Positions 1-18,694 of a DNA stretch of 18,694 nucleotides are shown piece by piece (position 1 is the first letter of the stretch; each line of letters starts with the position of its first letter). This DNA comes from Bacteroidales bacterium (GTDB lineage Bacteria; Bacteroidota; Bacteroidia; Bacteroidales; UBA932), in contig JAFXPV010000002.1 in the NCBI GenBank assembly GCA_017527625.1, positions 1 to 18,694 of the forward strand. The letters are read 5' to 3'. The position numbers were made by a program, and so were the translations under genes. The notes below the pieces were generated by a model. That model was not told the origin of the DNA and searched no databases. It saw only the letters and a list, made by a program, of their open reading frames with translations.

Positions 1-43
1 CTATGCCGAACAGAGATTTTCTGATGAAGTCACGTCTTTCCAT
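1..43 (-). CDS. N-terminus of a Tat-signal exported protein (partial)
   Basis: The minus strand opens with an ATG at 43 and reads MERRDFIRKSLFGI before the window ends. The RRDFIRK core matches the twin-arginine signal consensus (RRxFLK) common at the start of Bacteroidales exported oxidoreductases and hydrolases, so the product is probably folded in the cytoplasm and exported by TatABC. The start lies 9 nt after the stop codon of the GNAT-fold gene on the same strand, so the two are probably co-transcribed. Only 14 codons are visible and the mature protein cannot be identified. A chance open frame is possible, but the short gap and exact motif argue against it. Confidence 0.6.
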   Translation of the reverse strand, partial: MERRDFIRKSLFGI

Positions 44-52
44 AGCTGATGA

Positions 53-1171
53 TTATATTGCTTTGACATATGCGCGGCGGATGGTGTAGAGTTCGGTCTT
101 GAACTCTTCGAACAGGGTCTGGACCTTGAAGTTCTCTTCGAGCTGGGGGTTCATTATCATTCGGGTGACGCCGCGTTTGATGCAGTTTTCGTGGAGCTGC
201 TTGAACATAAGGACGCTGACGCCTTTGCCCTGATATTCGGGAAGCACGCCGATGAGCAGGGATTCGAGGGTGTCGTTGTGTTTGAGGGCCTTGAGAATGC
301 GGATGAAGCCGAAGGGCAGCAGGTTGCCGTTGCTCTTCTTGACGGCGGTGGACAGGGTCGGCACGCAGAAGCAGAAGCCGACGGGCTTGTCTTCTTCATT
401 GACCACCACCGAGACGAAATCCGTGTCGAGGATGGGGACATAGGTCTTGAGGTAGCGGCGGATTTGCTCGTCGGTGAGCGGAGCGAACTCATAGAGCGGA
501 GCGAAACTCTCGTTGTAGAGGTGGAAGATCTCCATTCCGTAGCGCTTGTTGAGCTCCTGCATACTGTGGCCGGTGACGGCGTGGACTCCGAATTTCTTCT
601 CGATGAGGGGAGCATACTGATATGACGGCAGCGGCTCCTGCGGGATGTACACGATCCTCTGGGTCCAGTCGGCATCTCTCTCGAAGCCTATTTTCTTGAG
701 GAGGGTGTCGTAGTATGGGAAATTGTAGAGGCAGGTGAAAGACGAAAGCTTGTCGTATCCTTCCACCAGCGAACCTTCCTTGTCCATATCCGTGAAGCCC
801 CAGGGGCCTTTGAGGGAGGTGCATCCGCGCTCCTTGCCGAAAGCTTCCACGGCGCCGATGAGGGCTCTGAGAACCTCCTCGTCCTCGATGAAGTCCAGCC
901 AGCCGAAACGGGCCACGGCACCCCAGCGCTTGTTGGCTTGGTGATTGATTATGGCTGCTACGCGGCCTGCCAGCTTGCCGTCCTTGTATGCCAGAAAGCA
1001 GTCAGCTTCGCAGTATTCGAAAGCGGCGTTCTTCTTCTTGTCGAAAGTGTCGAACTCGTCGCCGGTCAGAGCCGGTACCCAATAAGGATTGTCCTGGTAT
1101 AGTGAGAAAGGGAATTTTATGAATTTGCGCAAGTCGCTGCGGCTTGCGACCTTCTTGATAGTTACAGTCAT
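53..1171 (-). CDS. Conserved two-part GNAT-fold acyltransferase-like protein
   Basis: A 372-residue cytosolic protein that I recognise as a conserved Bacteroidota family, often left as hypothetical or labelled GNAT N-acetyltransferase. Its N-terminus contains a family hallmark (LYQDNPYWVP, residues 24-33). Residues about 55-130 look like a first GNAT-like half (FLAYKDGKLAGRVAAI). Residues about 250-355 form a second half with the acyl-CoA/pantetheine-binding signature LPEYQGKGV at 310-318. The ATG at 1171 is preferred over an in-frame TTG at 1210, because the TTG overlaps the likely -7 promoter element. The gene is divergent from an acyl-AMP ligase/ACP pair, which fits an acyltransferase drawing on acyl-ACP. 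Bacterial ceramide synthases described in Caulobacter are GNAT-domain proteins; a similar role here is inference only. The fold is fairly sure, the substrate unknown. Confidence 0.8.
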   Translation of the reverse strand: MTVTIKKVASRSDLRKFIKFPFSLYQDNPYWVPALTGDEFDTFDKKKNAAFEYCEADCFLAYKDGKLAGRVAAIINHQANKRWGAVARFGWLDFIEDEEVLRALIGAVEAFGKERGCTSLKGPWGFTDMDKEGSLVEGYDKLSSFTCLYNFPYYDTLLKKIGFERDADWTQRIVYIPQEPLPSYQYAPLIEKKFGVHAVTGHSMQELNKRYGMEIFHLYNESFAPLYEFAPLTDEQIRRYLKTYVPILDTDFVSVVVNEEDKPVGFCFCVPTLSTAVKKSNGNLLPFGFIRILKALKHNDTLESLLIGVLPEYQGKGVSVLMFKQLHENCIKRGVTRMIMNPQLEENFKVQTLFEEFKTELYTIRRAYVKAI

Positions 1172-1199
1172 AGTTTCAGGTCTTAGTTTAGGGTTAAAG

Positions 1200-1207
1200 C
1201 AAATGTA
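1200..1207 (-). promoter_or_regulatory. Putative -7 element for the GNAT-fold gene
   Basis: Read on the minus strand this is TACATTTG followed by C, an exact match to the Bacteroidota -7 consensus TAnnTTTG. It lies 28 nt upstream of the ATG at 1171, giving a predicted leader of about 20 nt. No TTTG is seen at the usual -33 distance. It faces away from the plus-strand element at 1219-1226, with 11 nt between them. Confidence 0.6.
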
Positions 1208-1218
1208 CAAAAAATGAG

Positions 1219-1226
1219 TATATTTG
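1219..1226 (+). promoter_or_regulatory. Putative -7 element for the ligase-ACP operon
   Basis: TATATTTG followed by C is an exact TAnnTTTG match, 33 nt before the ATG at 1260, giving a predicted leader of about 25-30 nt. A -33 TTTG is not evident; the place it would occupy falls just beyond the opposed minus-strand element. This arrangement suggests that polymerase can occupy only one direction at a time. Confidence 0.65.
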
Positions 1227-1259
1227 CCCCATTGTTACTGAAACTAAATCTAACTTAAA

Positions 1260-2759
1260 ATGAGTAATTACTTTTTTGACATGATTCCTGCAGAGGAATT
1301 GAAGCAGATGCCGTATATCCCTACGGTTCCCGAATTCCTCGATTTTATCGGCAGGCAATATCCCCAGTATCCGGCGCTGACCGACATCAACAAACCTGAA
1401 AAGAGCGTCAACTACGCCCAGCTCGTAGAGAACGTGGCCAAACGCCGCGCGTTCCTCGCAGGCCTCGGACTTGCTGACGGTGCCAAGGTGGCCATCTTCG
1501 ACTTCAACAGTGTGGATGCAGTCGAGATGTTCCTGGCAGTGACTTCAGCAGGATACACAGCAGTGATACTTCCCGCCCAGCTTCCTGCCCCCGCAGTTGC
1601 AGGTTCGTGCGCAAGATTCGACATCTCAGCCGTGATGGTCGGTGACGCCCTCAAAGGCGTGACAGAAGGGCTTCCGGTCAAAGTATATCCCATTTCTTCC
1701 ATCGGCGAAACCGAAGCTCCCGCAGCCAAGGTTGACAAGGACGCCCCGGCAGCCATTTTCTTCACGGGCGGAACCACCGGCACCCCGAAAGGCGCAATCC
1801 TGCCTCACCGCGCACTGCTCAGAGGTTCGTTCAACGGCGCTTTTATGCCCGGCAGCGTACTGCACTGCCACCGCACCATCGGTATGCTCCCGCTGAGCCA
1901 CGTGTTCGGCCTAATCAAAGGCACGATGTCTTGCCTGTACTCAGGCAACGAGTGGATTGCCTGCGAGGATATGAAAGCCACAATCGGCAAGCTCCCCGCA
2001 ATCCAGCCGACCTTCCTCACCCTGGTTCCCGGCCTTTGTGACATCCTCTACGGCCTGACCAAGATGTACGGCCCGAACTTCCTCGGCGGCAAGCTCAAGA
2101 TCATCATCAGCGGCGCAGCAAACGTTCCCCCGAGGCTTATCAAGGCCTTTGACGGTATGGGTATCGGTCTTCTCGGCGGCTACGGCCTGACTGAAGGCGC
2201 CAACTTCACCAGCGGAAACGCAGACGTCAAAACACACCCCACATCTGTCGGCAAGCTCTATGCAGAGCAGCAGATCCGTTTTGTGGACGGAGAAATCCAG
2301 CTCAAGGGCGACAACATCTTCCTTGGATACTATAAGGACCCTGCAAACACCGAAGCCGCATTCACTGAGGACGGATGGTTCCGCACCGGAGACCTCGGAA
2401 GAATGGACGAAGACGGCTTCCTGTACATCACAGGCCGCATCAAGAACCTCATCATCCTTGCTAACGGCGAGAACGTCTCTCCCGAGAGCATCGAAGAGCT
2501 TTTCTACAAATGCGACGCACTTCGCGACTGCCTCGTGAAAGAAGACATTATGAACGGCGAGAGCGTCATCGCCATCGACATCCTGCCTCAGCCCGCTTTC
2601 GTAGAAGGCAAGTCCGAGGAGGAAGTCGTCGCTTTCTTCAACAAACTCGTTGAAGACGTGAACGCAACCCTGCCGACAACCCACCGCGTAACAAAGGTTA
2701 CAGTTAGGAAGGAAGACTTCAAACGTACAGGATCCCTTAAAGTAGCGCGCAACCAGTAA
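1260..2759 (+). CDS. Class I adenylate-forming acyl-CoA/acyl-ACP synthetase
   Basis: A 499-residue member of the ANL superfamily, which activates a carboxylic acid as acyl-AMP and passes it to CoA or a carrier protein. Visible motifs: the P-loop TGGTTGTPKG (169-178), GGYGLTEG (306-313), GWFRTGDLG with Asp377 (372-380), GRIKNLI with hinge-region Arg393, and the C-terminal catalytic lysine in RTGSLKVAR (Lys494). Length is normal for the family. Its stop codon overlaps the ATG of the ACP gene by one base (TAATG), so the partner is very likely that ACP rather than, or as well as, CoA. A fatty acid substrate is likely but not proven by sequence. The window's only CATG tetranucleotide lies at its eighth codon. 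Confidence 0.9.
   Translation: MSNYFFDMIPAEELKQMPYIPTVPEFLDFIGRQYPQYPALTDINKPEKSVNYAQLVENVAKRRAFLAGLGLADGAKVAIFDFNSVDAVEMFLAVTSAGYTAVILPAQLPAPAVAGSCARFDISAVMVGDALKGVTEGLPVKVYPISSIGETEAPAAKVDKDAPAAIFFTGGTTGTPKGAILPHRALLRGSFNGAFMPGSVLHCHRTIGMLPLSHVFGLIKGTMSCLYSGNEWIACEDMKATIGKLPAIQPTFLTLVPGLCDILYGLTKMYGPNFLGGKLKIIISGAANVPPRLIKAFDGMGIGLLGGYGLTEGANFTSGNADVKTHPTSVGKLYAEQQIRFVDGEIQLKGDNIFLGYYKDPANTEAAFTEDGWFRTGDLGRMDEDGFLYITGRIKNLIILANGENVSPESIEELFYKCDALRDCLVKEDIMNGESVIAIDILPQPAFVEGKSEEEVVAFFNKLVEDVNATLPTTHRVTKVTVRKEDFKRTGSLKVARNQ
1280..1283. other. Sole CATG tetranucleotide found in the window
   Basis: The Asp7-Met8 junction (GAC ATG) of the adenylating enzyme holds the only CATG I could find on reading all 18.7 kb. 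CATG is its own reverse complement, so one reading covers both strands. See the finding on CATG avoidance. Confidence 0.85.
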
Positions 2760-3007
2760 TGACAGACACTGAGATTTTCGAAGGACTCAAAGAGATCCTG
2801 GCGGTGATGAAACCGCATCTTGACACCTCGTCAGCAACCCTCGAAAGCAACCTCGTCCGCGACCTCGACATCGACTCACTGTCGATGCTGCTGATGTCGC
2901 TCGCCCTGGAAAACAAGTTCAAGGTGAACTTCGACACCACAAGGGCCCCGTTTACCACTGTAGGCGAAGTTGTGACTTATATCAGGGAGAACCAGAAAGA
3001 ACAATAA
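2759..3007 (+). CDS. Acyl carrier protein
   Basis: An 82-residue acidic helical protein with the phosphopantetheine attachment motif DIDSL; Ser40 is the residue modified by a holo-ACP synthase. The length matches the ACP/PP-binding family. It shares one base with the upstream adenylating enzyme, so translation is coupled, which points to a dedicated carrier rather than the general fatty-acid ACP (AcpP), usually found with fabF. It follows the pattern of specialised ACPs loaded by an acyl-ACP synthetase. An intrinsic terminator closes the operon 28 nt after the stop. Carrier identity is clear; the pathway is inferred. Confidence 0.92.
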   Translation: MTDTEIFEGLKEILAVMKPHLDTSSATLESNLVRDLDIDSLSMLLMSLALENKFKVNFDTTRAPFTTVGEVVTYIRENQKEQ

Positions 3008-3034
3008 GCCGGAAAAGGCTGGTACTATAGATAG

Positions 3035-3072
3035 AAAAAGCGCGTGGAACAATTTCCACGCGCTTTTCTTTT
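3035..3072. terminator. Bidirectional intrinsic terminator
   Basis: A perfect 14-bp inverted repeat (AAAAGCGCGTGGAA at 3036-3049 and its complement at 3054-3067) with a 4-nt loop is followed on the plus strand by CTTTT and on the minus strand by a T tract formed from the A run at 3035-3039. It sits between the convergent ACP gene and M13 peptidase gene and should end both transcripts. Confidence 0.92.
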
Positions 3073-3089
3073 GCAGGTCTGAAGCCGCA

Positions 3090-5099
3090 CTACCAGATGT
3101 GTACGCGCTCAGACTCGGGACGGAACATCGGGTCGCCTTCGTGGATGTCGAATGCATCGAAGAAGGTCTGGAAGTTACGTACTGAAACGTTGACGCGGTT
3201 GCGTGCGAGAGAGTGTACGTCCATATTGGTGAGGCGTGCCTTCTCTTCGTCGGTGATGTTCTGGGCCCAGATGGCACCGTAGCTGAGGTAGAAACGCTGG
3301 GCGGGGGTGAAGCCGTCGATGAGTTTGACGGGCTTGCCGGCCATTGCGTTCTCCATAGCGGTGTAGGCGATTGAAAGTCCGCCGTGGTCACCGATGTTCT
3401 CGCCGAGGGTGTAGCGGCCGTTGGCGTGGACGCCGGGGAGGATTTCGACTTCGTCGAACTGGGCGACGAGCTTGTCGCCGAGAGCGTCGAACTTAGCCTT
3501 GTCTTCAGGAGTCCACCAGTTGGCCATATTGCCGACGGCGTCGAACATAGAACCCTGGTCGTCGAAACCGTGTGACATCTCGTGGCCGATGACTACGCCG
3601 ATGCCGCCGTAGTTGACGGGCTCGTCAGCGTTCGGGTCGAAGAACGGTTTCTGGAGGATACCTGCCGGGAAGCAGATCTCGTTGGTGGTGGGGTTGTAGT
3701 ATGCGTTGACGGTCTGGGGAGTCATACCCCACTCAGTCTTGTCAGTCGGTTTGCCGAGTTTTGAGAGGTTGTCCTTGACGTACCAGGCGCTGGCGTTGCG
3801 AAGGTTCTCGTAGTATGTATTGTCGGGGTTGATGTCGAGGGTGCTGTAGTCTTTCCATTTGTCGGGATAGCCGATCTTCACGGTGAAGGCGGCGAGTTTC
3901 TCGCGAGCCTTGGCCTTGGTGGCGTCGCTCATCCACTCCAAGTCGTCGATGTGCTGGCCGAGGGCGGTGCGGAGGTTCTCCACGAGTTCGATCATCATCT
4001 GCTTAGAAGACTCGGGGAAGTAGCGTTCAACATACATCTGTCCGACGGCTTCTCCGAGAAGGCTGTTGGGAACACTCATAGCGCGTTTCCAGCGGGGCTG
4101 CTGCTCCTGCGCGCCGGCCATCTGGTGGCTGAAGAATTCCCAGGATGCTGTGTAGAAGTCATCGCTGAGGGCGCTGCACTGACCGCTGATGAACTGGCAG
4201 AGCAGATAAGCCTTGAGAGTCTCGATGTCAGTCTTGGCGAAGAGCTTGTTGAGGCCGTCGAAATATGAAGGCTGCTCGACGATCACTTTCTCCTGAGGCT
4301 CGATGCCGGCTACGGCGCAAACCTTGTCGAAACGGAGTTCCGGCCATTTCTTGCAGATCTGCTCGGTTGACATCGGGTTGTACTGGGCTGCTACGTCGCG
4401 GTTCTGCTCGCGTGTCCAGAAAATCTCGGCCATAGCGTCTTCAACTGCCATATCCTTGGCTACTACGGCTTCGGCATTCTCAATGCCGGCGAGCTTGAGG
4501 ACTTTCACGAGGAAGTTCTTGTATCCTTCCTTGAGGGCGGCGTTGCTCTCGAGGAGGTAGTAGTCGCGGTCACCCATTCCAAGGCCTCCCTGGCCGAGGT
4601 AGAGGATCTGCATATCACTGTTGGTGAGGTCGGCGCTGACGCCTGAACCGAAGAAACCGCCTTCGCCGTAAAGATTCATCTCGCCGAGGACTCTGGCCAG
4701 ATCATCTTTGGTCTTGATGGCCTGGATCTGGGCGATGTAGGGCTGGATGGGCTGTGCGCCGAGAGCGTTGCGGGTTGTTGAGTCGAGGGCCATCTTGTAG
4801 AGGTCGGAGATCTTCTGGTCAACTGTGCCGTATTCGGCCTTTACAGAGGTCATACTCTCGAACAGGGCGTTGAGGTTCTCCTGAGCCTGCTCGCGCAGGG
4901 CGTCGAAGCTGCCGTAGCGTGAGAATTCGGGACGGAGCGGGTTGTTCTTCTGCCAACCGCCGGTTGAGTATTGATAGAAATCTTCCTTGGGGCTGACGCT
5001 GGTGTCAAGATAACTCATATCCAGGGCAGGGACGCTGTTCTTGTTTCCGCAAGAAGCGAATGCAAGGACTGACAACATAAGTACAAATACTTTTTTCAT
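3090..5099 (-). CDS. M13 (neprilysin-like) zinc metallopeptidase, lipoprotein
   Basis: A 669-residue endopeptidase of family M13 (PepO/neprilysin type), which cleaves small peptides. The N-terminus is a lipoprotein signal with Cys17 after AFAS. The residues following the cysteine (GNKNS) do not resemble the acidic surface-export signal known in Bacteroidota, so it probably faces the periplasm. Catalytic features: HEMSH at 506-510 (zinc ligands His506 and His510, catalytic Glu507), third zinc ligand Glu567 in GENIGDHGG, and the substrate-binding NAYYNP at 465-470. It ends in HIW, comparable to the CxxW ending of neprilysins but without the cysteine. Full length and intact. It is transcribed alone from a promoter facing the neighbouring acyltransferase-fold gene. 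Confidence 0.95.
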   Translation of the reverse strand: MKKVFVLMLSVLAFASCGNKNSVPALDMSYLDTSVSPKEDFYQYSTGGWQKNNPLRPEFSRYGSFDALREQAQENLNALFESMTSVKAEYGTVDQKISDLYKMALDSTTRNALGAQPIQPYIAQIQAIKTKDDLARVLGEMNLYGEGGFFGSGVSADLTNSDMQILYLGQGGLGMGDRDYYLLESNAALKEGYKNFLVKVLKLAGIENAEAVVAKDMAVEDAMAEIFWTREQNRDVAAQYNPMSTEQICKKWPELRFDKVCAVAGIEPQEKVIVEQPSYFDGLNKLFAKTDIETLKAYLLCQFISGQCSALSDDFYTASWEFFSHQMAGAQEQQPRWKRAMSVPNSLLGEAVGQMYVERYFPESSKQMMIELVENLRTALGQHIDDLEWMSDATKAKAREKLAAFTVKIGYPDKWKDYSTLDINPDNTYYENLRNASAWYVKDNLSKLGKPTDKTEWGMTPQTVNAYYNPTTNEICFPAGILQKPFFDPNADEPVNYGGIGVVIGHEMSHGFDDQGSMFDAVGNMANWWTPEDKAKFDALGDKLVAQFDEVEILPGVHANGRYTLGENIGDHGGLSIAYTAMENAMAGKPVKLIDGFTPAQRFYLSYGAIWAQNITDEEKARLTNMDVHSLARNRVNVSVRNFQTFFDAFDIHEGDPMFRPESERVHIW

Positions 5100-5142
5100 A
5101 ATGTTATTATTATAGAATCTTTTGTTCTTGTCTAAGGGCTCG

Positions 5143-5150
5143 CAAATTTA
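5143..5150 (-). promoter_or_regulatory. Putative -7 element for the M13 peptidase gene
   Basis: On the minus strand this reads TAAATTTG followed by C, matching TAnnTTTG exactly, 43 nt upstream of the ATG at 5099. Extended by one base, it forms one arm of a 9-bp inverted repeat whose other arm contains the opposing promoter element at 5163-5170. Confidence 0.65.
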
Positions 5151-5162
5151 AAACAAGTTTAT

Positions 5163-5170
5163 TAAATTTG
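5163..5170 (+). promoter_or_regulatory. Putative -7 element for the acyltransferase-fold gene
   Basis: TAAATTTG followed by T matches TAnnTTTG exactly. It lies 24 nt before the ATG at 5195, predicting a leader of under 20 nt. It is the mirror image of the minus-strand element 12 nt away. Confidence 0.65.
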
Positions 5171-5194
5171 TTAATTATACTTGAACCTGAACTA

Positions 5195-6085
5195 ATGAGC
5201 GAAACTAGAAAAAGGAAATGGGGGGACCGCAGGGACGGCTTCTGGGTAAAAGACATTCCAGGACTCAACACCGTGATGATGCACCTCTTTCCTAACCGTA
5301 CCGATTGTGAGGTCTACCTCAATGACAAACTGGATGTGACTGAAGTCCTCAAGTTCATTGAGAAGAAAAATGAAAACCATCCGGACTACAAGACCACAAT
5401 TTTCCACGCTATGATCATCGCTGTCGCCCGTATGGTGAAGGAGCGCAACAAGATGAACCGTTTCATCCAGGGCAGACGTGTCTACGAAAGATACGATGTC
5501 AGTATGAGCTTCGTCGCCAAACGCCGCTTCCTCGACGGTTCCGACGAGTCGAGTATGTTCTTCGTTCCGAAGGATGACGACAATCTGGACAGCCTCAGCT
5601 ACAGGATGTCCGGCGAAATCAAGCAGATGCGCAAGAGCGAGCATTCCACCGGAGGCATCGACTCTACCATCGACGCTTTCGCCAAGATTCCGCGCCTGCT
5701 GCTGATGGTGGCGCTCAGGATCATCCGCTGGCTCGACTTCTGGGGCGTCAACCCCAAGGCTCTGACGGACGGCGACTGCAATTACTCCTCAGTGCTGCTG
5801 AGCAACCTGGGAAGCATCGGCGGTCCTGCCGTCTACCACCATCTGAACAACTACGGCACCAACAGCATTATGGTGACTGTCGGCACCGTGCACAAAGAAG
5901 AGATGGTGATGCCCGACGGCCACAAGGAAGTGAGGGATATATTGGATATCGGAGCTACGCTTGACGAGCGCATAGCGGACGGATTCTATTTCGTGCGCAG
6001 CCTCAAGCTGCTCAAGTATATTTTTGCCAATCCGGAACTTCTGGACAAGCCGATGGGCGAACACAGCGGCTTCAACTACGAATAG
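5195..6085 (+). CDS. CAT/E2-fold acyltransferase-like protein lacking the catalytic His
   Basis: A 296-residue protein resembling the catalytic domain of 2-oxoacid dehydrogenase E2 and trimeric chloramphenicol acetyltransferase. Recognisable parts are the strand-turn LLSNLGSIGG at 201-210 (E2: SNLG) and the active-site segment DERIADGF at 257-264, equivalent to DHRxxDG of E2 and HHxxxDG of CAT. The essential histidine is Glu258 here, while Asp262 and Gly263 remain. It has no lipoyl or peripheral-binding domain, and no E1 or E3 gene is nearby, so it is not a complete E2. I chose the ATG at 5195 rather than an in-frame TTG at 5168, which falls within the -7 element. Its last 10 bases overlap aroK tail to tail. 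Fold likely, activity unknown. Confidence 0.78.
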   Translation: MSETRKRKWGDRRDGFWVKDIPGLNTVMMHLFPNRTDCEVYLNDKLDVTEVLKFIEKKNENHPDYKTTIFHAMIIAVARMVKERNKMNRFIQGRRVYERYDVSMSFVAKRRFLDGSDESSMFFVPKDDDNLDSLSYRMSGEIKQMRKSEHSTGGIDSTIDAFAKIPRLLLMVALRIIRWLDFWGVNPKALTDGDCNYSSVLLSNLGSIGGPAVYHHLNNYGTNSIMVTVGTVHKEEMVMPDGHKEVRDILDIGATLDERIADGFYFVRSLKLLKYIFANPELLDKPMGEHSGFNYE

Positions 6086-6606
6086 TCACACTCGGCCGCT
6101 ATTGCGTCGGCAATCTGCACGAACGTCAGTGCGTCCGTGTCGATGACTGTGTCCGCTACTGAACTGTAGATGCCGCTGCGGACTTCGAACATCTCTTCGA
6201 TCTGAGCCCTTGTCTTGCCCTGGAGCAGAGGCCTCGGATAAGTGGCTTCAATATTCTCAAGACAAGTGTCGAGGCTGCAGCGCAGCCACACCAGACGGCA
6301 GTTCTCTTTCAGAACGGCACGGTTCTCATCCCTCACGACGGCACCACCGCCGAGGGCGATTATGGCTCCCCGGCTGCCGCTGAGAAGCTTGCGCAGGGTG
6401 GCTGTCTCGAGATTGCGGAAGTAGCTTTCCCCCATACCTGCGAAAACTGCCGACACCGAGTCGTACTGCCGGTCGGGGAAGGCCTCGTTGTGGGCCTCCA
6501 GCACTGCGTCGTCAAGGTCGAAGAAAGCTATGCCGGAGCGCTGCGCGGCGGCACGTCCGTAGGTTGTCTTGCCACAACCCATAAATCCTGTGAGGGCTAC
6601 GTTCAC
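6076..6606 (-). CDS. aroK: Shikimate kinase
   Basis: A 176-residue enzyme phosphorylating shikimate with ATP in the chorismate pathway. Motifs: Walker A GFMGCGKT (7-14), shikimate-binding FFDLDD with Asp30 and Asp32, YFRNLE with Arg64, GGG at 86-88, RPLL with Arg125 (nucleotide side), lid Arg133 and the conserved RSGIY near 143-147. The start is inferred to be the GTG at 6606, one base after the parC stop. No ATG gives a complete Walker A without running far into parC, and 176 residues is the usual size. Translation is therefore probably coupled to parC. Its 3' end overlaps the convergent gene by 10 bp, and no hairpin terminator is seen. Confidence 0.95.
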   Translation of the reverse strand: MNVALTGFMGCGKTTYGRAAAQRSGIAFFDLDDAVLEAHNEAFPDRQYDSVSAVFAGMGESYFRNLETATLRKLLSGSRGAIIALGGGAVVRDENRAVLKENCRLVWLRCSLDTCLENIEATYPRPLLQGKTRAQIEEMFEVRSGIYSSVADTVIDTDALTFVQIADAIAAECDYS

Positions 6607-6607
6607 T

Positions 6608-9400: not shown

Positions 9401-9406
9401 TGCCTG

Positions 9407-11256: not shown

Positions 11257-11279
11257 TTTTCTGGCGTTTTTTGCCGCAG

Positions 11280-11287
11280 CAAATTTA
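11280..11287 (-). promoter_or_regulatory. Putative internal promoter for rluB-era-parC-aroK
   Basis: In the 39-nt gap after pyrF the minus strand reads TAAATTTG followed by C, an exact -7 match, 23 nt before the rluB ATG. It would let the rluB-era-parC-aroK segment be transcribed independently of pyrF. No clear -33 TTTG is visible. Confidence 0.5.
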
Positions 11288-11295
11288 GTTGTTTT

Positions 11296-12099
11296 TTACA
11301 GATATGTGGCCATTTCGTCGGCCAGAGCCTTGGCTGCGGCAGCGGAGGCCTCGGCGAAGCCTTCGCCCTTGCCGGCGTAGATCACGCCGCGGGAAGAATT
11401 GACAAGCAGGCCGCAGCGGCTGTTCATACCGTATCTGACCACTTCGCTTACTGTGCCTCCCTGGGCGCCGACGCCAGGCACGAGAAAGAAATTGTCGGGG
11501 CATATCTCACGGATGGCCTTGAACATCTCGGGGCGGGTGGCTCCCACGACGAACATCGTGTTGTCGACAGTGCCCCACTCCAGGGCCTTGCTCATTACTT
11601 TGGCGTAGAGGGGTTCCTCGCCTCCGAATTCGAAGTCCTGCGCGGATTCGTTGGAAGTCGCCGCAAGGATGACCGCCCACTTGCCCTCATACTCGAGGAA
11701 GGGCTTGACGCTGTCGTAGCCCATATATGGCGAAAGGGTGACGGCGTCGAAATCCAGGGTCTCGAAAAATGCACGGGCATACATACGGGCGGTGTTGCCG
11801 ATGTCGCAGCGCTTTGCGTCCAGGATGACGAACAGCTCCGGGTAGTGTTTCCTGATGTATGATACAGTCATCTCCAGCTCGTTCCATCCCTGGGCCCCGA
11901 ACACTTCGTAGAAAGCGCTGTTGGGCTTGTAGGCAACGGCGTAAGCGGCTGTCGCGTCGATGATTGCCTTGTTGAATTCGAAGATGGGATGCTCCGTGTG
12001 CTTGAGGTGTTCCGGAATCTTGGAGATCTCGGGATCCAGTCCGATGCACAGGAAACTCCGCTTGGCGAGTATGTTTTCGTACAGTTGCTGATGTGTCAT
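11296..12099 (-). CDS. pyrF: Orotidine 5'-phosphate decarboxylase, type 2
   Basis: A 267-residue enzyme that decarboxylates OMP to UMP, the last step of pyrimidine nucleotide synthesis. The type 2 (long) form is recognised by FLCIGLDPEISKIP near 16-29, the KPNSAFYE segment (58-65), and the catalytic DAKRCDIGNTA at 94-104 with Lys96 and Asp99. A phosphate-binding PGVGAQGG and a late NSSRG motif complete the active site. Position 98 is Cys where the family almost always has Gly, as I recall. It is the promoter-proximal gene of the minus-strand cluster and diverges from tig. The start at 12099 gives the expected N-terminus. Confidence 0.96.
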   Translation of the reverse strand: MTHQQLYENILAKRSFLCIGLDPEISKIPEHLKHTEHPIFEFNKAIIDATAAYAVAYKPNSAFYEVFGAQGWNELEMTVSYIRKHYPELFVILDAKRCDIGNTARMYARAFFETLDFDAVTLSPYMGYDSVKPFLEYEGKWAVILAATSNESAQDFEFGGEEPLYAKVMSKALEWGTVDNTMFVVGATRPEMFKAIREICPDNFFLVPGVGAQGGTVSEVVRYGMNSRCGLLVNSSRGVIYAGKGEGFAEASAAAAKALADEMATYL

Positions 12100-12136
12100 A
12101 GCAGTCGGCTAAAATGATTTTTTTGACTGAATTATA

Positions 12137-12144
12137 CAAAGATA
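12137..12144 (-). promoter_or_regulatory. Putative -7 element for pyrF operon
   Basis: Minus strand TATCTTTG followed by T matches TAnnTTTG exactly, 37 nt upstream of the pyrF ATG, for a leader of about 30 nt. It is probably the main promoter for pyrF-rluB-era-parC-aroK. Confidence 0.65.
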
Positions 12145-12156
12145 CCAAATTTTTAC

Positions 12157-12164
12157 TATTTTTA
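12157..12164 (+). promoter_or_regulatory. Possible -7 element for tig-clpP-clpX
   Basis: TATTTTTA departs from TAnnTTTG only at the last base and lies 37 nt before the tig ATG. On sequence alone it is weak. It gains support from its position: exactly 12 nt from the opposed pyrF element, the same geometry as the other two divergent regions in the window. Confidence 0.35.
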
Positions 12165-12201
12165 CGCCCCTTTGTTTCGAATAGAAAAATCAAATAAAAA
12201 T

Positions 12202-13518
12202 ATGCAGATAAATCAAACCAATCAGGAAGACCTCACATTGAAGGTCAGCATCAAGGTCGACAAAGAAGACTACGCAGAAGATATGAACAAACGCCTCAAG
12301 GAATATCGCCACAAGGCTGATATCCGCGGCTTCCGCAAAGGAATGGCTCCTATGGGCCTCATCGAGAAGATGTACGGCGGCCAGGCGCTCGCAGATGCCA
12401 TCAACACGGTAGTGTCACAGGCGCTCGCCAAACATATAGAGGACAACAAGCTCAACGTCATCGGAGAACCGCTTCCGAGCGAGGACAATGACAAGGCTGC
12501 TGAAGAAGGCGATTCTTTCACTTTCGACTTTGACCTTGGAGTAGCCCCTGAAGTCACGGTGGACGTGACCGCAGAAGACACCATCCCTTACTACACGGTG
12601 ACTGTCAGCACCAAAGCGGTGGCTGACTACAAAGACAGCCTCCTTCGCCAGTACGGCACTATGGAGAGCGGCGAGAAGGCCGGTGATGACGATTTCGTAG
12701 TTGTGGATTTCAAGCAGGGCGAAACCGAGGTGAAGGATGCCTATGTGGCTCTGCGCAGCATCGCAGATGAAGCCAAGAGCATCTTCCTGGGCATAAAGAA
12801 GGACGACGTGAGGGACCTCGACGTAAATGAGGTTTTCCCCAACGAGTCAGACCGTGCAGCTATGCTCCATATGAAGAAAGAGGAGCTGAAAGATATGGAT
12901 CCGAAGTGGCAGATGACAGTGAAGGACGTCAAGACCTTCGTGGCAGCCAAGCCGACTCCCGAGACCTTCGACAAGATTTTCGGCAAGGACGAGGTGAAAG
13001 ACGAAGCAGCGTTCGACGCAAAGGTCAAAGACCTGCTCAAGAAGGAATATGCCCGCGAGAGCGACTACCGCTTCGCCGGCGACGTGCGCGATTATCTCCT
13101 TCAGAAAGCTGACATCAAGCTCCCCGAGGCATTCCTCAAGAAATGGCTCATCCGTGTCAACGAGGGCAAGTACACCGCAGAGGACATCGAGAAAGAGTTC
13201 GGCGCTTTCACCAAGGACTTCCGCTGGCAGATGATCTGCAACCACCTGATGAAGGCCCACGGTATGGAAGTTACCAAGGAAGACCTCGACAAGGAGGCCA
13301 AGGCGCTGGCAGCATACCAGTTCGCTATGTACGGTATGAACGACGTTCCTGAAGACCAGCTCGCCGGTTTCGCTGACCGTCTTCTCGGAGACGACGACCA
13401 GGCCCGCCGCCTTTACGACAAGGTCGAGTCCGACAAGGTAATCGCTTACGTGAAGGATACCGTCACCCTCGACAAGAAAAAATCAACCATCGAAAAGATG
13501 CGCCAGCAGAGCAAGTAA
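12202..13518 (+). CDS. tig: Trigger factor, ribosome-associated chaperone
   Basis: A 438-residue chaperone that docks at the ribosomal exit tunnel and shields nascent chains. The ribosome-binding signature GFRKGMAPMGLIEKMYG is at 43-59, the same position as in E. coli. Residues about 135-245 are in the place of the PPIase domain but only weakly resemble FKBP, so proline isomerase activity is doubtful. The remainder is the helical C-terminal substrate-binding domain. The ATG at 12202 is chosen because the reading frame then begins directly with the conserved N-terminal strand; an upstream TTG at 12172 would add non-conserved residues. It is the first gene of tig-clpP-clpX, 12 nt before clpP. 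All nine internal Met codons preceded by a pyrimidine-ending codon follow T, never C. Confidence 0.95.
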   Translation: MQINQTNQEDLTLKVSIKVDKEDYAEDMNKRLKEYRHKADIRGFRKGMAPMGLIEKMYGGQALADAINTVVSQALAKHIEDNKLNVIGEPLPSEDNDKAAEEGDSFTFDFDLGVAPEVTVDVTAEDTIPYYTVTVSTKAVADYKDSLLRQYGTMESGEKAGDDDFVVVDFKQGETEVKDAYVALRSIADEAKSIFLGIKKDDVRDLDVNEVFPNESDRAAMLHMKKEELKDMDPKWQMTVKDVKTFVAAKPTPETFDKIFGKDEVKDEAAFDAKVKDLLKKEYARESDYRFAGDVRDYLLQKADIKLPEAFLKKWLIRVNEGKYTAEDIEKEFGAFTKDFRWQMICNHLMKAHGMEVTKEDLDKEAKALAAYQFAMYGMNDVPEDQLAGFADRLLGDDDQARRLYDKVESDKVIAYVKDTVTLDKKKSTIEKMRQQSK

Positions 13519-13530
13519 TTTGTCCGCAAT

Positions 13531-14211
13531 ATGAACGAATTTGAGAAATACGCTGTCAAGCACCGTGGCATCAGCTCTATGGCCCTGCACAGGTTCAATT
13601 CAGTGAACGACAGCTACATCAACCCTATGATCATCGAAGAGCGCCAGCTTAACGTGGCCCAGATGGATGTCTTCTCACGTTTGATGATGGACCGCATCAT
13701 CTTCCTCGGCTGCCCCATCAACGATGAGGTCGCCAACATCATCCAGGCCCAGCTGCTCTTCCTCGACAGCAACGGTTACGATTCTGACATTTCCCTGTAC
13801 ATCAACTCCCCGGGAGGTTCGGTATACGACGGTCTCGGCATCTACGACACGATGCAGACCATCAGTTCCGACATCCACACCATCTGCACCGGTATGGCCG
13901 CTTCTATGGCATCTGTGCTGCTGGCAGCCGGCACTGCCGGAAAACGCTCGGCGCTGACCCACTCGAGAGTTATGATACACCAGCCGCTCGGAGGCGCTGA
14001 AGGCCAGGCTTCCGACATCGAGATCACTGCCCGCGAGATCCTCAAGCTCAAAGACGAACTCTACCAGATTCTCAGCGACCACACCGGCAAGAGTATGGAT
14101 GAGATCCGCCGCGACGCCGACCGCGATTTCTGGATGACTTCGCAGGAAGCTCTCGACTACGGAATGATAGACCAGATCGTGACCAAAGCTGAAAAAAATG
14201 GCAAAAAGTAA
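13531..14211 (+). CDS. clpP: ATP-dependent Clp protease proteolytic subunit
   Basis: A 226-residue serine peptidase forming the double heptameric ClpP chamber. The triad is Ser125 (GMAASMAS), His150 (MIHQPLGG) and Asp199, with spacings of 25 and 49 residues identical to E. coli ClpP (97, 122, 171). The oxyanion region INSPGGSV is at 91-98. The approximately 30-residue N-terminal stretch before the conserved core is longer than in E. coli and may include a propeptide. It follows tig by 12 nt and overlaps clpX by 14 nt, so protease and unfoldase are translated together. Confidence 0.97.
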   Translation: MNEFEKYAVKHRGISSMALHRFNSVNDSYINPMIIEERQLNVAQMDVFSRLMMDRIIFLGCPINDEVANIIQAQLLFLDSNGYDSDISLYINSPGGSVYDGLGIYDTMQTISSDIHTICTGMAASMASVLLAAGTAGKRSALTHSRVMIHQPLGGAEGQASDIEITAREILKLKDELYQILSDHTGKSMDEIRRDADRDFWMTSQEALDYGMIDQIVTKAEKNGKK

Positions 14212-15463
14212 AATCGAAGAAGTCCATTGCCCCTTCTGCGGCAGAAGCGAAAACGAAGTTCCGCTGATGCTCTACGGCGAGAACGCCTGCATCTGCTCCG
14301 ACTGTGCCGAAATGGCATTCACCAAGGCAAAGGAACTTCTTCACCCCCAGAGCAGCATCAAGACGGCCGGCAAGGTGAACGGCGAGTTCTCCCTGCGCAA
14401 GCCTCACGAGATTTATGATTTCCTCAGCCAGTACGTGGTAGGGCAGGACGCTGCAAAGAAGACTCTCGCAGTGGCCGTGTACAACCACTACAAGAGGATC
14501 GAGAATGCTGAGGCAGGCAATTCGGACCTCTTCGAGAAATCCAATATCCTGATGGTTGGACCGACCGGCACCGGCAAGACCCTGCTGGCCCGCACCATCG
14601 CCAAGATGCTCAACGTACCTTTCGCAATTGTCGACGCCACAGTCCTGACAGAGGCAGGATATGTAGGTGAAGATGTGGAGAGCATCCTGACCCGCCTTCT
14701 GCAGGACGCTGATTACGACGTCAAGAAAGCAGAGAAGGGCATAGTCTTCATCGACGAAATAGACAAGATCGCCCGCAAGGGTGACAATCCTTCGATAACC
14801 CGCGACGTTTCGGGAGAAGGAGTACAGCAGGCCCTGCTGAAAATCATCGAGGGCAGCATAGTCAACGTGCCGCCCCAGGGAGGCCGCAAGCATCCCGAGC
14901 AGCAGATGATAGCTGTCGACACCAACAACATCCTCTTCATCTGCGGAGGTGCGTTCGAAGGCATAGAGCGCAACATCGGCAACCGCCTGAACACCCAGGT
15001 GGTGGGTTATACTTCCGTCAAAACCCGCTCCCGCATCGACCGTGACAACCTCATCCAGTATATCGCTCCCCAGGACCTGAGGGCCTACGGACTGATACCG
15101 GAAATCATCGGCCGTCTCCCGGTGCTCACCCACCTGAATCCGCTCGACCGCCGCACGCTGCGCGCCATCCTCACCGAGCCGAAGAACTCCCTCGTCAACC
15201 AGTACAAGGAAATCTTCCGTCTCGACGGCATCAAGCTCATCATCAAGCCGGACGTGCTGGAGTATATCGTCGACACGGCCATCGAGTTCAAGCTCGGAGC
15301 CCGTGGACTGCGTTCGATCTGCGAAATCATAATGCTCGACGCAATGTACGACGCACCCACTTCGAAGCGCAAGACATTCACTATAAACCTCGATTACGCG
15401 AAGTCCAAAGTACAAAAATCGGGAGCGATACTCGTTAAAGATACCACTCCCGTTATCGAATGA
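14198..15463 (+). CDS. clpX: ClpX, AAA+ unfoldase of ClpXP
   Basis: A 421-residue AAA+ ATPase that recognises tagged substrates, unfolds them and feeds ClpP. Zinc-binding domain: Cys11, Cys14, Cys33, Cys36. Walker A GPTGTGKT (121-128), pore loop GYVG (154-157), Walker B IVFIDEID (182-189), RKH loop (230-232) and sensor 2 GARGLRS (367-373). The ClpP-docking loop is VGY (269-271) rather than IGF. The start overlaps the end of clpP. The last about 50 bases also encode, on the opposite strand, what looks like the rho terminator. No good clpX terminator is visible; the two convergent genes are only 19 bp apart. Confidence 0.97.
15414..15452 (-). terminator. Putative rho-gene intrinsic terminator inside clpX
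   Basis: In minus-strand RNA, CGGGAGUGGUAU can pair with GUAUCGCUCCCG as a 12-bp stem including three G-U pairs around a 9-nt loop, followed at once by AUUUUUGU. It starts 31 nt after the rho stop codon. On the plus strand the wobble pairs become A-C mismatches and no U tract follows, so the signal is strand-specific. Confidence 0.7.
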
Positions 15464-15482
15464 CCTTCGTCGAGGCCGTTTT

Positions 15483-17294
15483 CTAGTTCAGAATATCCCC
15501 GTTCATAGAGATCAGGAATTCCTGGTTGTCTCTGGTCCTTTGCAGCCTGCTCTTCATAAACTCCATAGCTTCTACGGAGTTCATATCTGAGAGGTAGTTG
15601 CGCAGTATCCAGATGCGGTTGACGTGCTCCGGATCGTAAAGCAGGTCGTCGCGGCGGGTGCTGCTGAGGGTAACGTCCACTGCAGGGAAGATGCGCTTGT
15701 TGGAAAGTTTGCGGTCGAGCTGGAGCTCCAGGTTGCCGGTTCCTTTGAATTCCTCGAAGATCACGTCGTCCATCTTGGATCCGGTCTCGGTAAGGGCTGT
15801 GGCGAGGATTGTGAGCGAACCTCCGTTCTCGATGTTACGGGCGGCGCCGAAGAAGCGTTTCGGCTTCTGGAGGGCGTTGGCGTCCACACCGCCGGAAAGG
15901 ACTTTGCCGGATGCCGGCTGCACGGTGTTGTAAGCCCTGGCGAGACGTGTGATGGAGTCGAGCAGGATTACGACGTCGTGTCCGCACTCCACAAGCCTCT
16001 TGGCTTTCTCGATGACCATATTGGCAACCTTCACGTGCCTCTCAGCAGGTTCGTCGAAGGTAGAGGCGATAACCTCGGCCTTGACGCTGCGCTGCATATC
16101 GGTAACCTCCTCGGGACGCTCGTCAATGAGCAGCACTATCATAAACACCTCGGGGTGGTTGTCGGCGATTGCATTGGCTATATCCTTGAGCAATACTGTC
16201 TTACCGGTCTTGGGCTGGGCTACGATAAGACCCCTCTGGCCTTTGCCGATAGGGGTGAACAGATCCACCACGCGGACAGAAATGTTGTCGTTGTGCCCGT
16301 TGCCGGTGATGTTGAATTTCTCGTCGGGGAAAAGCGGGGTGAGGAAGTCGAAGGGCACGCGGTCGCGAACTTCTTCGGGAAGACGGCCGTTGATGCGGTC
16401 GACTCTCACCAGCGGGAAATATTTGTCGCCTTCGCGCGGAGGACGGATCTCGCCGAGAATGGTGTCGCCGTTCTTGAGTGCGTAGTTCTTTATCTGCGAC
16501 TGTGATACATATATATCATCAGGGGAGTTCAGGTAGTTGTAGTCAGAAGAACGCAGGAAGCCGTAACCGTCAGGCATAATCTCCAGCACGCCGATGGCCT
16601 TGACGATGCCCTCGAACTCGATGCGGGGCCTGGGCTGCTGATGCTGCTGGTTCTGGTTCTGATTCTGCTGATTCTGATTCTGGTTTTGCTGCTGCTGGAC
16701 TTGCTGGCCCTGCTGAGGCTGCTGCTGGCCCTGGGGCTGCTGTTCGGGAGCGGCCTGGGCTGCAGCATCGGCTTTCTGCCTGCCTTTTCTCTGCCTGGCG
16801 GGCTGCTGCTTGGGCTGGTCCTGGGCGCTTTGCTCCTTGGGCTGCTTGGGCTCCTGCTCCTGAGCTTTGGGAGCCTTGGGCTCTTTGGGCTGGCGGCTTT
16901 GCTTTGCAGGCTTCTCCTGAGCGGCGGGAGTTCCTTCTGCTGCCTTTTCTTCAGCGGGGGCTGCAGTTTTCCTGGGTCTTCCGGCTTTCTTCTTCGCGGG
17001 AGCCTGGGGCGCATCGGCAGCGCTTTCGTCTGTTGCAGGGGCGGCTTCAACGGCCTTTTCGGCCGCAGCTGCGGGTTCTGCGCTCGCCTCTACTTTCTGA
17101 GCAGCCGGCTTGGCAATCCTCGGCCGAGCCTTCTTGGGCTTGGGTGATTCATTGCTTTGTATGGCCTGCTCATCGAGGATGACGTAGATCAGGTCTTCCT
17201 TCTTGATGTTTTCAGGCTTTTTGATATTGAGTTCTTTTGCGATAGCGTACAAGTCTTCCTGACTTTTTGCGCTCAATTCGAGAATGTCGTACAT
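15483..17294 (-). CDS. rho: Transcription termination factor Rho with long disordered insert
   Basis: A 603-residue hexameric RNA-dependent ATPase that ends transcripts; E. coli Rho has 419. Residues 1-45 form the Rho N-terminal helical domain. Residues about 47-224 are a low-complexity insert, Ala/Pro/Lys/Glu-rich and then almost pure Gln/Asn. The cold-shock-type RNA-binding domain follows (about 227-301, GYGFLR at 243-248). The ATPase has Walker A QPKTGKT (360-366), the catalytic-Glu region DERPEE (391-396), Walker B VVILLDS (441-447) and Q/R-loop segments [20 protein letters not shown] (468-487). The start at 17294 gives the expected N-terminus. It is convergent with clpX and downstream of lptD, with its own promoter. 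Confidence 0.97.
16635..16745 (-). repeat. Gln/Asn codon-repeat tract in rho
   Basis: Codons 184-220 of rho are almost all CAG/CAA and AAT/AAC, giving imperfect 6-12 nt repeats (on the plus strand CTG and ATTCTG units). They encode a Q/N-rich, prion-like segment. The tract is prone to slippage, so its length may vary between strains. Confidence 0.8.
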
Positions 17295-17324
17295 TAAAAG
17301 ATTATTGGTAATTGAAAGGAGAAA

Positions 17325-17340
17325 ATGCCTGAAACGGCAT
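17325..17340 (-). promoter_or_regulatory. Small hairpin in the rho leader
   Basis: ATGCC and GGCAT form a 5-bp stem with a 6-nt loop in the predicted rho 5' leader, about 30 nt before the start codon. No U tract follows on the minus strand. Many bacterial rho genes are autoregulated in the leader, but nothing here proves that. Confidence 0.3.
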
Positions 17341-17361
17341 AATCCTCAGTGGAATGCTTTG

Positions 17362-17391
17362 CAAATATAGCAAATAAATCGGAATTGCAAA
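17362..17391 (-). promoter_or_regulatory. Putative rho promoter with -33 and -7 elements
   Basis: On the minus strand TTTG (17391-17388), an 18-nt spacer and TATATTTG followed by C (17369-17362) match the two-part Bacteroidota promoter, with a spacer about one base shorter than usual. It lies directly after the lptD stop codon, and the predicted leader is about 60 nt. Confidence 0.7.
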
Positions 17392-17395
17392 CAGC

Positions 17396-18694
17396 TTATT
17401 TATCCCAGTAGCTGGACGCCTTCTTGAACTGCAGCAGGTCGGCAAGCGCAGATGCGTTCGCGGCTATGCGGAAACTCCAGCTCTCCCACGTTCCCTGAGG
17501 CACCCAGGATACCGATATGTTGAAGCAGTGCAGGTCGTATGTCGCGCTGAGCTGTGTTGTGGTCAGGGCCAGTTTCGTCAGGTCGAAACCGGTGTTGAGC
17601 GACAGGTTCAGGGCCTTGGTCAACTTCAGCTGGGCGGAGGCGCTGATGGTGCTGGTGAAGTTGTTGACTTTCTGCAGCATTCCATTGACGTTCTTGTAGG
17701 AGGCCGAATATGCGAAGTTGGCGTTGAGGTTGAGCGACCAGGGCGACGAAGGGTTGAGGTAATAGAGCCATCCTCCGGGGATATACTCTCCGGTGACAGG
17801 GTGGTAGTACACCCTGTAATAGTCGGGCGAACTCGAAGGGTCGGCTTCCGATTTGCCGTCATTTCCGTCGATGCGTCCTTCTCCGCTGAAAGAGTAGGAG
17901 AGGGAGGCGCTGGCGTTGGTGATCCTGGCTATCCTGAAACCTTTTTCCTGGATGATGTTGAAGGTGTTGATGCGCTTGCCCTGATTGTCGACGGCATAGG
18001 GGTCAAGAGTCATATTACCGTTGATTCCGAGCTTGCCGAACACGGTGGTCGAGCCGGAAATCGATATGGTCGACAGATTGAGCGAGTCCGCCAGGAAATT
18101 GTAGTTTCCGCTTATCGTCAGCTGGTCGAGCAGCTTGACCTTGGTGGTGGCGACTCCGGTGGAGTCCTTGTCGTCGCGAACCTTCGCTTCGAGGTTGTTG
18201 CCGAAAGAGAAGCCGAGCGACATTGACTTGCCTTTTGAAGGAGGGGAGTACATCATACCGCTGTATTTGTTGTACTCTTCCACCACTTCCTCGCCCTTGG
18301 CGTTGACGTACCTGAGGGTGGTGTAGCCGTTGGCAGGGGTTCCGAGCTCGGGTTTGAACGAGAAGCTGAAGCTCGGGGTTATCATATGGCGGATGGCTTG
18401 CAGCTTGCCCTTCGGGTTGAAGTTGAACATACCGTAGATACGCGTGCTCATCGAGATGCCGCCGGAGTAGTTCTGGGTTATGCCGAAGGTGCTGAACTGG
18501 TCGGTCATCTTGGAGATGACTTTCTGGGCCTCAGGATCGTATTCTCGGATGTTCTCCCTGAAATACCAGTTCATTCCGTAGGAGATTGAAGGCGAGAAGT
18601 TGAAGTATTTGAGGAGGGTGAACTGAGGGAGGCCGATGGCGAAGTTGTGCGTCATTCCGTTCTCCATCTTGTTGATCAGGCCGGGGTCCTTGAG
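17396..18694 (-). CDS. lptD: LptD-like outer-membrane LPS assembly protein (5' end outside window)
   Basis: The C-terminal 432 residues of a large beta-barrel protein; the frame stays open to the window edge. Alternating hydrophobic/aromatic strands run throughout, for example KYFNFSPSISYGMNWYF and HMITPSFSFSFKPEL. The end, SWVPQGTWESWSFRIAANA followed by a short SYWDK tail, matches my recollection of the Bacteroidota putative LPS-assembly protein LptD, which inserts LPS into the outer leaflet. The periplasmic OstA-like half would lie beyond the window. The stop is only a few bases from the rho -33 element. Another outer-membrane barrel cannot be fully excluded from the C-terminus alone. Confidence 0.85.
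   Translation of the reverse strand, partial: LKDPGLINKMENGMTHNFAIGLPQFTLLKYFNFSPSISYGMNWYFRENIREYDPEAQKVISKMTDQFSTFGITQNYSGGISMSTRIYGMFNFNPKGKLQAIRHMITPSFSFSFKPELGTPANGYTTLRYVNAKGEEVVEEYNKYSGMMYSPPSKGKSMSLGFSFGNNLEAKVRDDKDSTGVATTKVKLLDQLTISGNYNFLADSLNLSTISISGSTTVFGKLGINGNMTLDPYAVDNQGKRINTFNIIQEKGFRIARITNASASLSYSFSGEGRIDGNDGKSEADPSSSPDYYRVYYHPVTGEYIPGGWLYYLNPSSPWSLNLNANFAYSASYKNVNGMLQKVNNFTSTISASAQLKLTKALNLSLNTGFDLTKLALTTTQLSATYDLHCFNISVSWVPQGTWESWSFRIAANASALADLLQFKKASSYWDK

Follow-up and report, generated by a model that had tools for sequence, protein, structure and literature searches.

The tetranucleotide CATG is almost absent from a stretch of Bacteroidales DNA of 18,694 bases (positions 1..18694, given without strand) that carries 14 genes and that is referred to here, at its full length, as the window. 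The depletion is real and statistically very strong, and it adds a strong new case to a phenomenon that is already known, restriction-site avoidance. What lies behind it is probably a Type II restriction-modification (R-M) system that cuts CATG and that is either resident in this lineage or was recently lost from it; of interest is the identity of the CATG enzyme that has acted in the window's genus.

An exact count finds CATG once in the window, at 1280..1283, when 72.5 occurrences are expected from a second-order Markov model of the 18,694 bases and 71.0 from base composition. Its ratio of 0.014 is the lowest among the 256 tetramers (Poisson P(<=1 | 72.5) = 2e-30). An initial annotation of this DNA, made from the letters alone, had located the lone site against an expectation of roughly 60-70, and the observation is correct, although its G+C content of about 57% has to be corrected to 55.2%. 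The next most depleted tetramer is CTAG (2 vs 19.7 expected), which is low in most relatives as well, and for this reason its shortage is treated as background. Synonymous codons were also shuffled in 300 rounds within each of the 14 genes, with amino acids and codon counts preserved, and this null gave a mean of 68.7 CATG (standard deviation 5.0, minimum 54) against the single one found. Under this null ACGT, AGCT, TCGA, CCGG, GGCC and GCGC stay near their means, TGCA lies above its mean (59 vs 48.5), and GTAC (40 vs 61.3), GATC (60 vs 80.7), CGCG (65 vs 83.4) and CTAG (2 vs 9.8) are moderately low, far less so than CATG. When the palindromes of the window are set against the Markov model the CATG deficit thus stands, and GATC, GGCC, TCGA and AGCT, which had been called plentiful, are so by raw number, but GATC (62) reaches only 0.61 of its Markov expectation. 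Chance and composition are ruled out as causes by these two nulls, and an assembly artefact by the fact that independent metagenome-assembled genomes (MAGs) have the same loss while normal sisters are found at the same locus; no point in favour of any of the three was found, and their joint probability is practically negligible.

The manner in which the sites were lost is equally informative. Across the window, methionine codons that come after a pyrimidine-ending codon follow T 66 times and C once, so that CATG is present at one of 67 xxC|ATG junctions, namely the GAC|ATG junction of an acyl-CoA ligase-like gene (1260..2759); for ATC, taken as a comparison, the preference is reversed, with 21 preceded by T and 176 by C. 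The initial annotation had described this bias for tig (12202..13518, + strand), where its nine of nine internal Met codons preceded by T are exact. The other two codon frames are empty too: no histidine codon followed by G is CAT (0 of 20), although CAT makes up 14 of 65 histidine codons elsewhere (p 0.016), and before TG the count of NCA is 0 of 16, as opposed to 191 of 1214 elsewhere. A set of 35 strict sites was defined by requiring that at least two of the relatives L003, L004 and L006 be readable and that all the readable ones have CATG. None of these is kept as CATG in the window; 22 have become TATG, the remaining 13 AATG, GATG, AATA, CACG, CCGG, CCTG or CGTG, and none CATA. Under a looser rule, which requires the normal sister clade to have CATG, 0 of 62 sites are retained and 35 have become TATG, while 16 other tetramers treated in the same way are retained at 27-82%.

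These observations bear on the alternative that CATG was methylated at C-5 and decayed by deamination to TATG or CATA, with no selection involved. It is true that TATG is the commonest replacement under both rules, and that part of the proposal stands. Nevertheless, at Met junctions after two-fold codons the change from C to T is the sole silent escape, 13 of the 35 strict sites have gone to other words without a single CATA, and CAT|G and NCA|TG are empty even though a C-to-T change on either strand cannot empty them silently. Since CATG has been emptied from all three codon frames, and via transversions as well, decay of methylated cytosine alone is rejected; the word was lost by any substitution, the pattern is one of selection and not of decay, and an explanation by deamination with no selection is very improbable. 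Replacements shared between depleted lineages are also more numerous than shuffles give; such an excess can arise from amino-acid constraint and from changes in the normal clade, and no conclusion is drawn from it.

A second alternative is that CAUG is avoided in RNA, because of an RNA nuclease or a regulator, instead of CATG in DNA. The word is palindromic, so strand cannot tell one kind of avoidance from the other. Against this proposal, the stretches outside open reading frames (ORFs) of ten near-zero loci, the window included, hold 1 CATG vs 16.2 expected, though they are short and perhaps transcribed, and those of ten normal loci hold 20 vs 19.2; a stricter definition of non-ORF DNA gives 0 vs 4.4, too small to use. 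Furthermore, genes for a system that cuts DNA are associated with the depletion, as described below. Avoidance at the RNA level is therefore given hardly any credence.

The place of the depletion among relatives was examined with tig (trigger factor) as the query, keeping the best 80 of 137 Bacteroidales loci, mostly from MAGs, many of these 80 derived from ruminant guts. The nearest relative found, L001, comes from a yak-rumen MAG and shares 94.5% identity with the window across 7 kb of coding sequence; for L002 to L007 the identity is 83-86%, and homologues of other window genes are found on these loci as well. Among the 81 loci (the 80 relatives plus the window), 17 have a CATG ratio under 0.25, 4 fall between 0.25 and 0.5, the other 60 reach at least 0.5, and a tig tree built by a quick method, in which 16 of 78 inner forks are open, needs at least 12 switches in depletion state. 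Sister rows can diverge strongly (L041 at 0.81 vs L056 at 0.01; L059 at 0.59 vs L065 at 0.00). The depletion is thus lineage-specific, and some congeners of the window have normal CATG: within the genus, L003, L004 and L006 are at 0.77-0.94, L001, L002 and L005 at 0.07-0.16, and L007 is intermediate (0.40). L007 may be losing or regaining CATG: its CATGs coincide with those of L003 in 20 of 26 cases, and the C preference of a normal genome would produce almost this pattern.

In kin genomes the loss of CATG is genome-wide. This was measured by counting WWCATGWW against the reversed pattern, which gives strongly low values for G013 (14/307), G016 (39/434) and G001 (79/241), milder ones among the genomes counted as depleted for G004 (313/329) and G007 (158/207), and 627/333 for the normal genome G018. 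A normal genome-wide frequency, the outcome that would have spoken against restriction, is not seen in depleted kin such as G013. The genus was also followed as a series of 26 MAGs, of which 25 could be read (G696 was masked) in samples of 3.6 to 61 kb each; the CATG ratio runs from 0.00 (G682, 0/34) to 0.88 (G018), with G682 (13.3 kb), G746 (8.3 kb) and G573 (4.6 kb) at 0.00-0.05. The pooled ratio of G002 is 0.45 because its contig L116 (G002:C1) counts 58/55; normal CATG in a contig of a depleted MAG probably reflects misbinning or recent acquisition. In a tree of 14 rows the genus breaks up into three groups whose fork is open. Forcing the depleted genus rows together is not rejected (approximately unbiased test, p-AU 0.086), so depletion may have arisen once within the genus. 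One genus that spans the normal state (0.88) and complete absence (0.00 in 13 kb) would allow the rates of target erasure and of recovery to be measured.

According to Rusinov et al. (2015; PMC4687349), avoidance is caused only by Type II systems whose nuclease and methyltransferase act separately, and it can persist as a trace of systems that have been lost. The present case resembles those described there in that a palindromic 4-mer is avoided, genome-wide in kin and in a lineage-specific manner, with or without a resident system; it is unlike them in that the depletion is nearly complete and that the state switches so many times over 81 loci. The main text of that paper contains neither CATG nor any word beginning with Bacteroid, and among full-text literature matches, in a limited check, no title concerned CATG loss in these bacteria. 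Another report describes GTAC as avoided in Helicobacter and Campylobacter with restriction glycosylases of the PabI family (PMC10273834), a case that is alike in that a 4-base palindrome is rare where a toxic restriction enzyme has long resided, and different in the word and in the type of enzyme. In H. pylori, M.HpyI is reported in all genomes, with CATG as the densest motif and the nuclease facultative (PMC10423294), which indicates that a methyltransferase alone does not deplete CATG.

The preferred explanation, a Type II system, would operate as follows. An R-M system cutting unmethylated CATG would be, or would until recently have been, present in the lineage. Whenever methylation is incomplete, or the methyltransferase is diluted after loss of the system, the nuclease would cut the chromosome at leftover CATG, any substitution that destroys the word would be favoured, and the word would nearly disappear. 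If R-M systems are gained and lost repeatedly among gut Bacteroidales, lineages would differ in how far loss or recovery has advanced. The Type II nature of the enzyme in the window's lineage and the self-cutting mechanism are inferred, and the enzyme may or may not still be present.

A candidate system of a known CATG-targeting type does occur in other Bacteroidales. In H. pylori, iceA1 resembles NlaIII and adjoins the methyltransferase gene hpyIM (PMC13340068), and the nuclease was accordingly searched as Pfam ICEA (PF05315). It is present in one of 50 panel genomes, G015 (389 bits), whose locus has no CATG at all (L065, 0/91). The G015 cassette has the order N6_N4 methyltransferase, ICEA nuclease, D12 methyltransferase, and its 20-kb stretch contains 2 CATG vs 82 expected, one at 14544 inside the N6_N4 gene and one at 13167 in the stretch that separates the nuclease from the D12 gene. 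ICEA is rare: the search of 101 relatives of G015 returned only G015 itself, and a draw of 395 genomes from the phylum returned two, G015 and a fragment of 31 positions in G316. A draw from the family of G001 gave 5 matches in 398 genomes, four of them over the cut-off (G709, G797, G805 and G795), with the gene order of G015 where the contig permits; two of these four cassettes are complete with three genes, that of G795 is cut inside the nuclease and that of G805 inside the D12 gene. As in the NlaIII and IceA1-HpyIM systems, whose target is CATG, the nuclease lies close to a D12 methyltransferase (within about 1.2 kb) in all five genomes. Unlike in those systems, four of the five copies have an extra, N6_N4-class methyltransferase, the fifth copy being truncated by a contig end. 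The five copies occupy four different housekeeping sites, G797 and G805 having a common left flank, so the cassettes move.

The five genomes with a substantial ICEA match and a D12 methyltransferase are all CATG-poor (0.00-0.36; G795 at 0.063, G805 at 0.064, G797 at 0.078 and G709 at 0.36). As controls, 28 ICEA-free genomes were taken from the same family draw, of which 2 had no such contig and 1 was all N; of the 25 counted, 3 fall below 0.4 (Mann-Whitney p 7.6e-4, Fisher p 0.0015, with G015 left out of both tests). Given their family and the loss of the word in their hosts, the cassette enzymes of the five genomes presumably cleave and methylate CATG. The initial annotation had proposed that the lineage carries or faces a CATG-specific system. 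This is supported in part, since the pressure it supposed is favoured by the CATG-poor state of ICEA genomes, by the genome-wide loss in kin and by its repetition in separate lineages.

Several observations weigh against attributing the loss in the window to such a system. The association just described is based on five genomes and on a threshold of 0.4 chosen after the data had been seen, and at 0.25 it is weaker (3/4 vs 2/25, p 0.010). The ICEA-free controls G543 and G546 are strongly depleted on two contigs each, and the 3.1-kb locus around the ICEA fragment of G316, a fragment excluded as a remnant or a false match, shows a normal CATG count (10 vs 8). ICEA is lacking in 16 of the 17 panel genomes classed as depleted, a class made up of 16 genomes under 0.25 and that of L007 at 0.40. 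None of the 26 MAGs of the window's own genus, which are incomplete, has ICEA over the cut-off. The methyltransferases of the four depleted congeners G001-G004 are no more helpful: the D12 family (PF02086) is found in none of them, PF01555 only as one phage-like gene in G002, PF00145 only as two genes in G002, and PF07669 only as weak matches (20.7-26.1 bits), in reading frames 279-319 residues long that, in our reading, look PrmC-like. These four families give no obvious CATG candidate in G001-G004, and D12 is likewise absent from the three normal congeners G018-G020. The nuclease therefore goes with the depletion, yet the depletion is mostly found without ICEA. The systems may be short-lived, with a scar that persists after them, or be missing from the bins, or different enzymes may be responsible; for an enzyme that the lineage would carry now, these searches give no match.

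One form that the Type II explanation may take is that a cassette of the NlaIII/IceA type was itself active in the window's genus and has since disappeared, or resides on mobile DNA outside the bins. This is a possibility to be held tentatively. The presence of the nuclease in four of 398 genomes of the same family, the mobility of the cassette and the graded series within the genus, such as loss followed by slow recovery would give, all favour it, as do 2474 relatives of the nuclease in a metagenome protein set, where the few that bear an organism name among the best 120 are Bacteroidales. It is opposed by the lack of a match over the cut-off in any genus MAG, including G682, G746 and G573, where the pressure should be recent. 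The search for NlaIII-like enzymes suggested in the initial annotation thus found the cassette in five other Bacteroidales, but none over the cut-off in the genus and none in phages; the PDB likewise gave no match, and plasmids gave one partial match (Priestia, 37% identity).

It is somewhat doubtful, though conceivable, that a CATG-specific enzyme of a family outside the searches acts in the genus. Near-zero CATG without ICEA, the four methyltransferase families without a clear candidate and the depleted lineages elsewhere on the tree, which mostly lack ICEA too, speak for it; on the other side, MAGs are incomplete and the methyltransferase search comprised four families in four depleted congeners. 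More specifically, and with less probability, the genus and many other CATG-poor Bacteroidales would carry a CATG restriction system of an unrecognised family, without homology to NlaIII/IceA, whose methyltransferase lies outside the D12, N6_N4, C5 and Eco57I models or does not exist, the latter being conceivable because the genome is nearly free of targets. Whichever enzyme is responsible for a Type II loss of this kind, the missing word serves as a detector, as it flags uncultured lineages that have harboured a CATG-cutting enzyme even though searches find none.

The CATGs that persist in near-zero genomes are unevenly placed. Stretches of G013 and G016 were picked where WWCATGWW clusters, a choice that does not map every site, and in most of those examined the CATGs are restricted to bounded islands with up to 22 CATG in 4.4 kb next to DNA that has none. 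In our reading, the islands contain a duplicated ABC-transporter-like gene, a transposase-like gene with accessory genes, SusC/SusD-like clusters and a McrBC-like defence island. Isolated sites are also present in near-zero genomes, and L216 has no CATG in 20 kb. The confinement to foreign-looking islands indicates that incoming CATG is initially tolerated, which methylation of the word or absence of the nuclease would lead one to expect. A Dam-like D12 enzyme and a PDDEXK_13 nuclease lie in a CATG-holding island of G016, and no link between them and CATG was established.

Within the genus, G646 has an ICEA match below the cut-off (18.9 bits). It belongs to a trio at L273:8915-11558 that we read as an XRE-type regulator, a weakly ICEA-like frame of 315 codons and a C5 methyltransferase; since the CATG ratio of G646 is 0.61, the trio is probably aimed at another word. 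Other targets are also suggested by six viral loci with relatives of IceA (L224 to L229). L224 is low in CATG (7/30) but also in CCGG (0/22) and GGCC (5/33), L225 in CATG (3/49) and GATC (0/55), the near-duplicates L226 and L227 have normal CATG and little GATC (5/43 and 2/54), L228 is poor in GTAC (4/46) and L229 has no palindrome below 0.4. From the GATC- and GTAC-poor viral contigs that encode IceA-family nucleases, it seems that distant members of the family may target these other words. The nucleases of L226, L227 and L228 adjoin methyltransferase-like genes.

A parallel for GATC is provided by G009, which has GATC at 0.27 in its locus and carries a DpnII system; the four other panel loci poor in both CATG and GATC (L031, L033, L042 and L048) have no PF01555 match. 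Further words have been lost in these bacteria. AGCT is a second word lost in Bacteroidales lineages, being nearly absent from L072, L076 and L079, and also from L075 and L078 (0.00-0.17), and two control contigs show single-word losses within the family, of GATC in L259 (G557, 1/61) and of GGCC in L252 (G549, 4/47).

The genes of the window, named from their translations, encode a GNAT acetyltransferase, the acyl-CoA ligase-like protein, an M13 peptidase and a CAT-like protein, followed by aroK, parC, era, rluB, pyrF, tig, clpP, clpX, rho and an LptD-like gene. Lastly, the sole 16S gene among 34 genomes, on L223 (G012), looks archaeal in our reading, which suggests that a misbinned contig has entered this Bacteroidales MAG.

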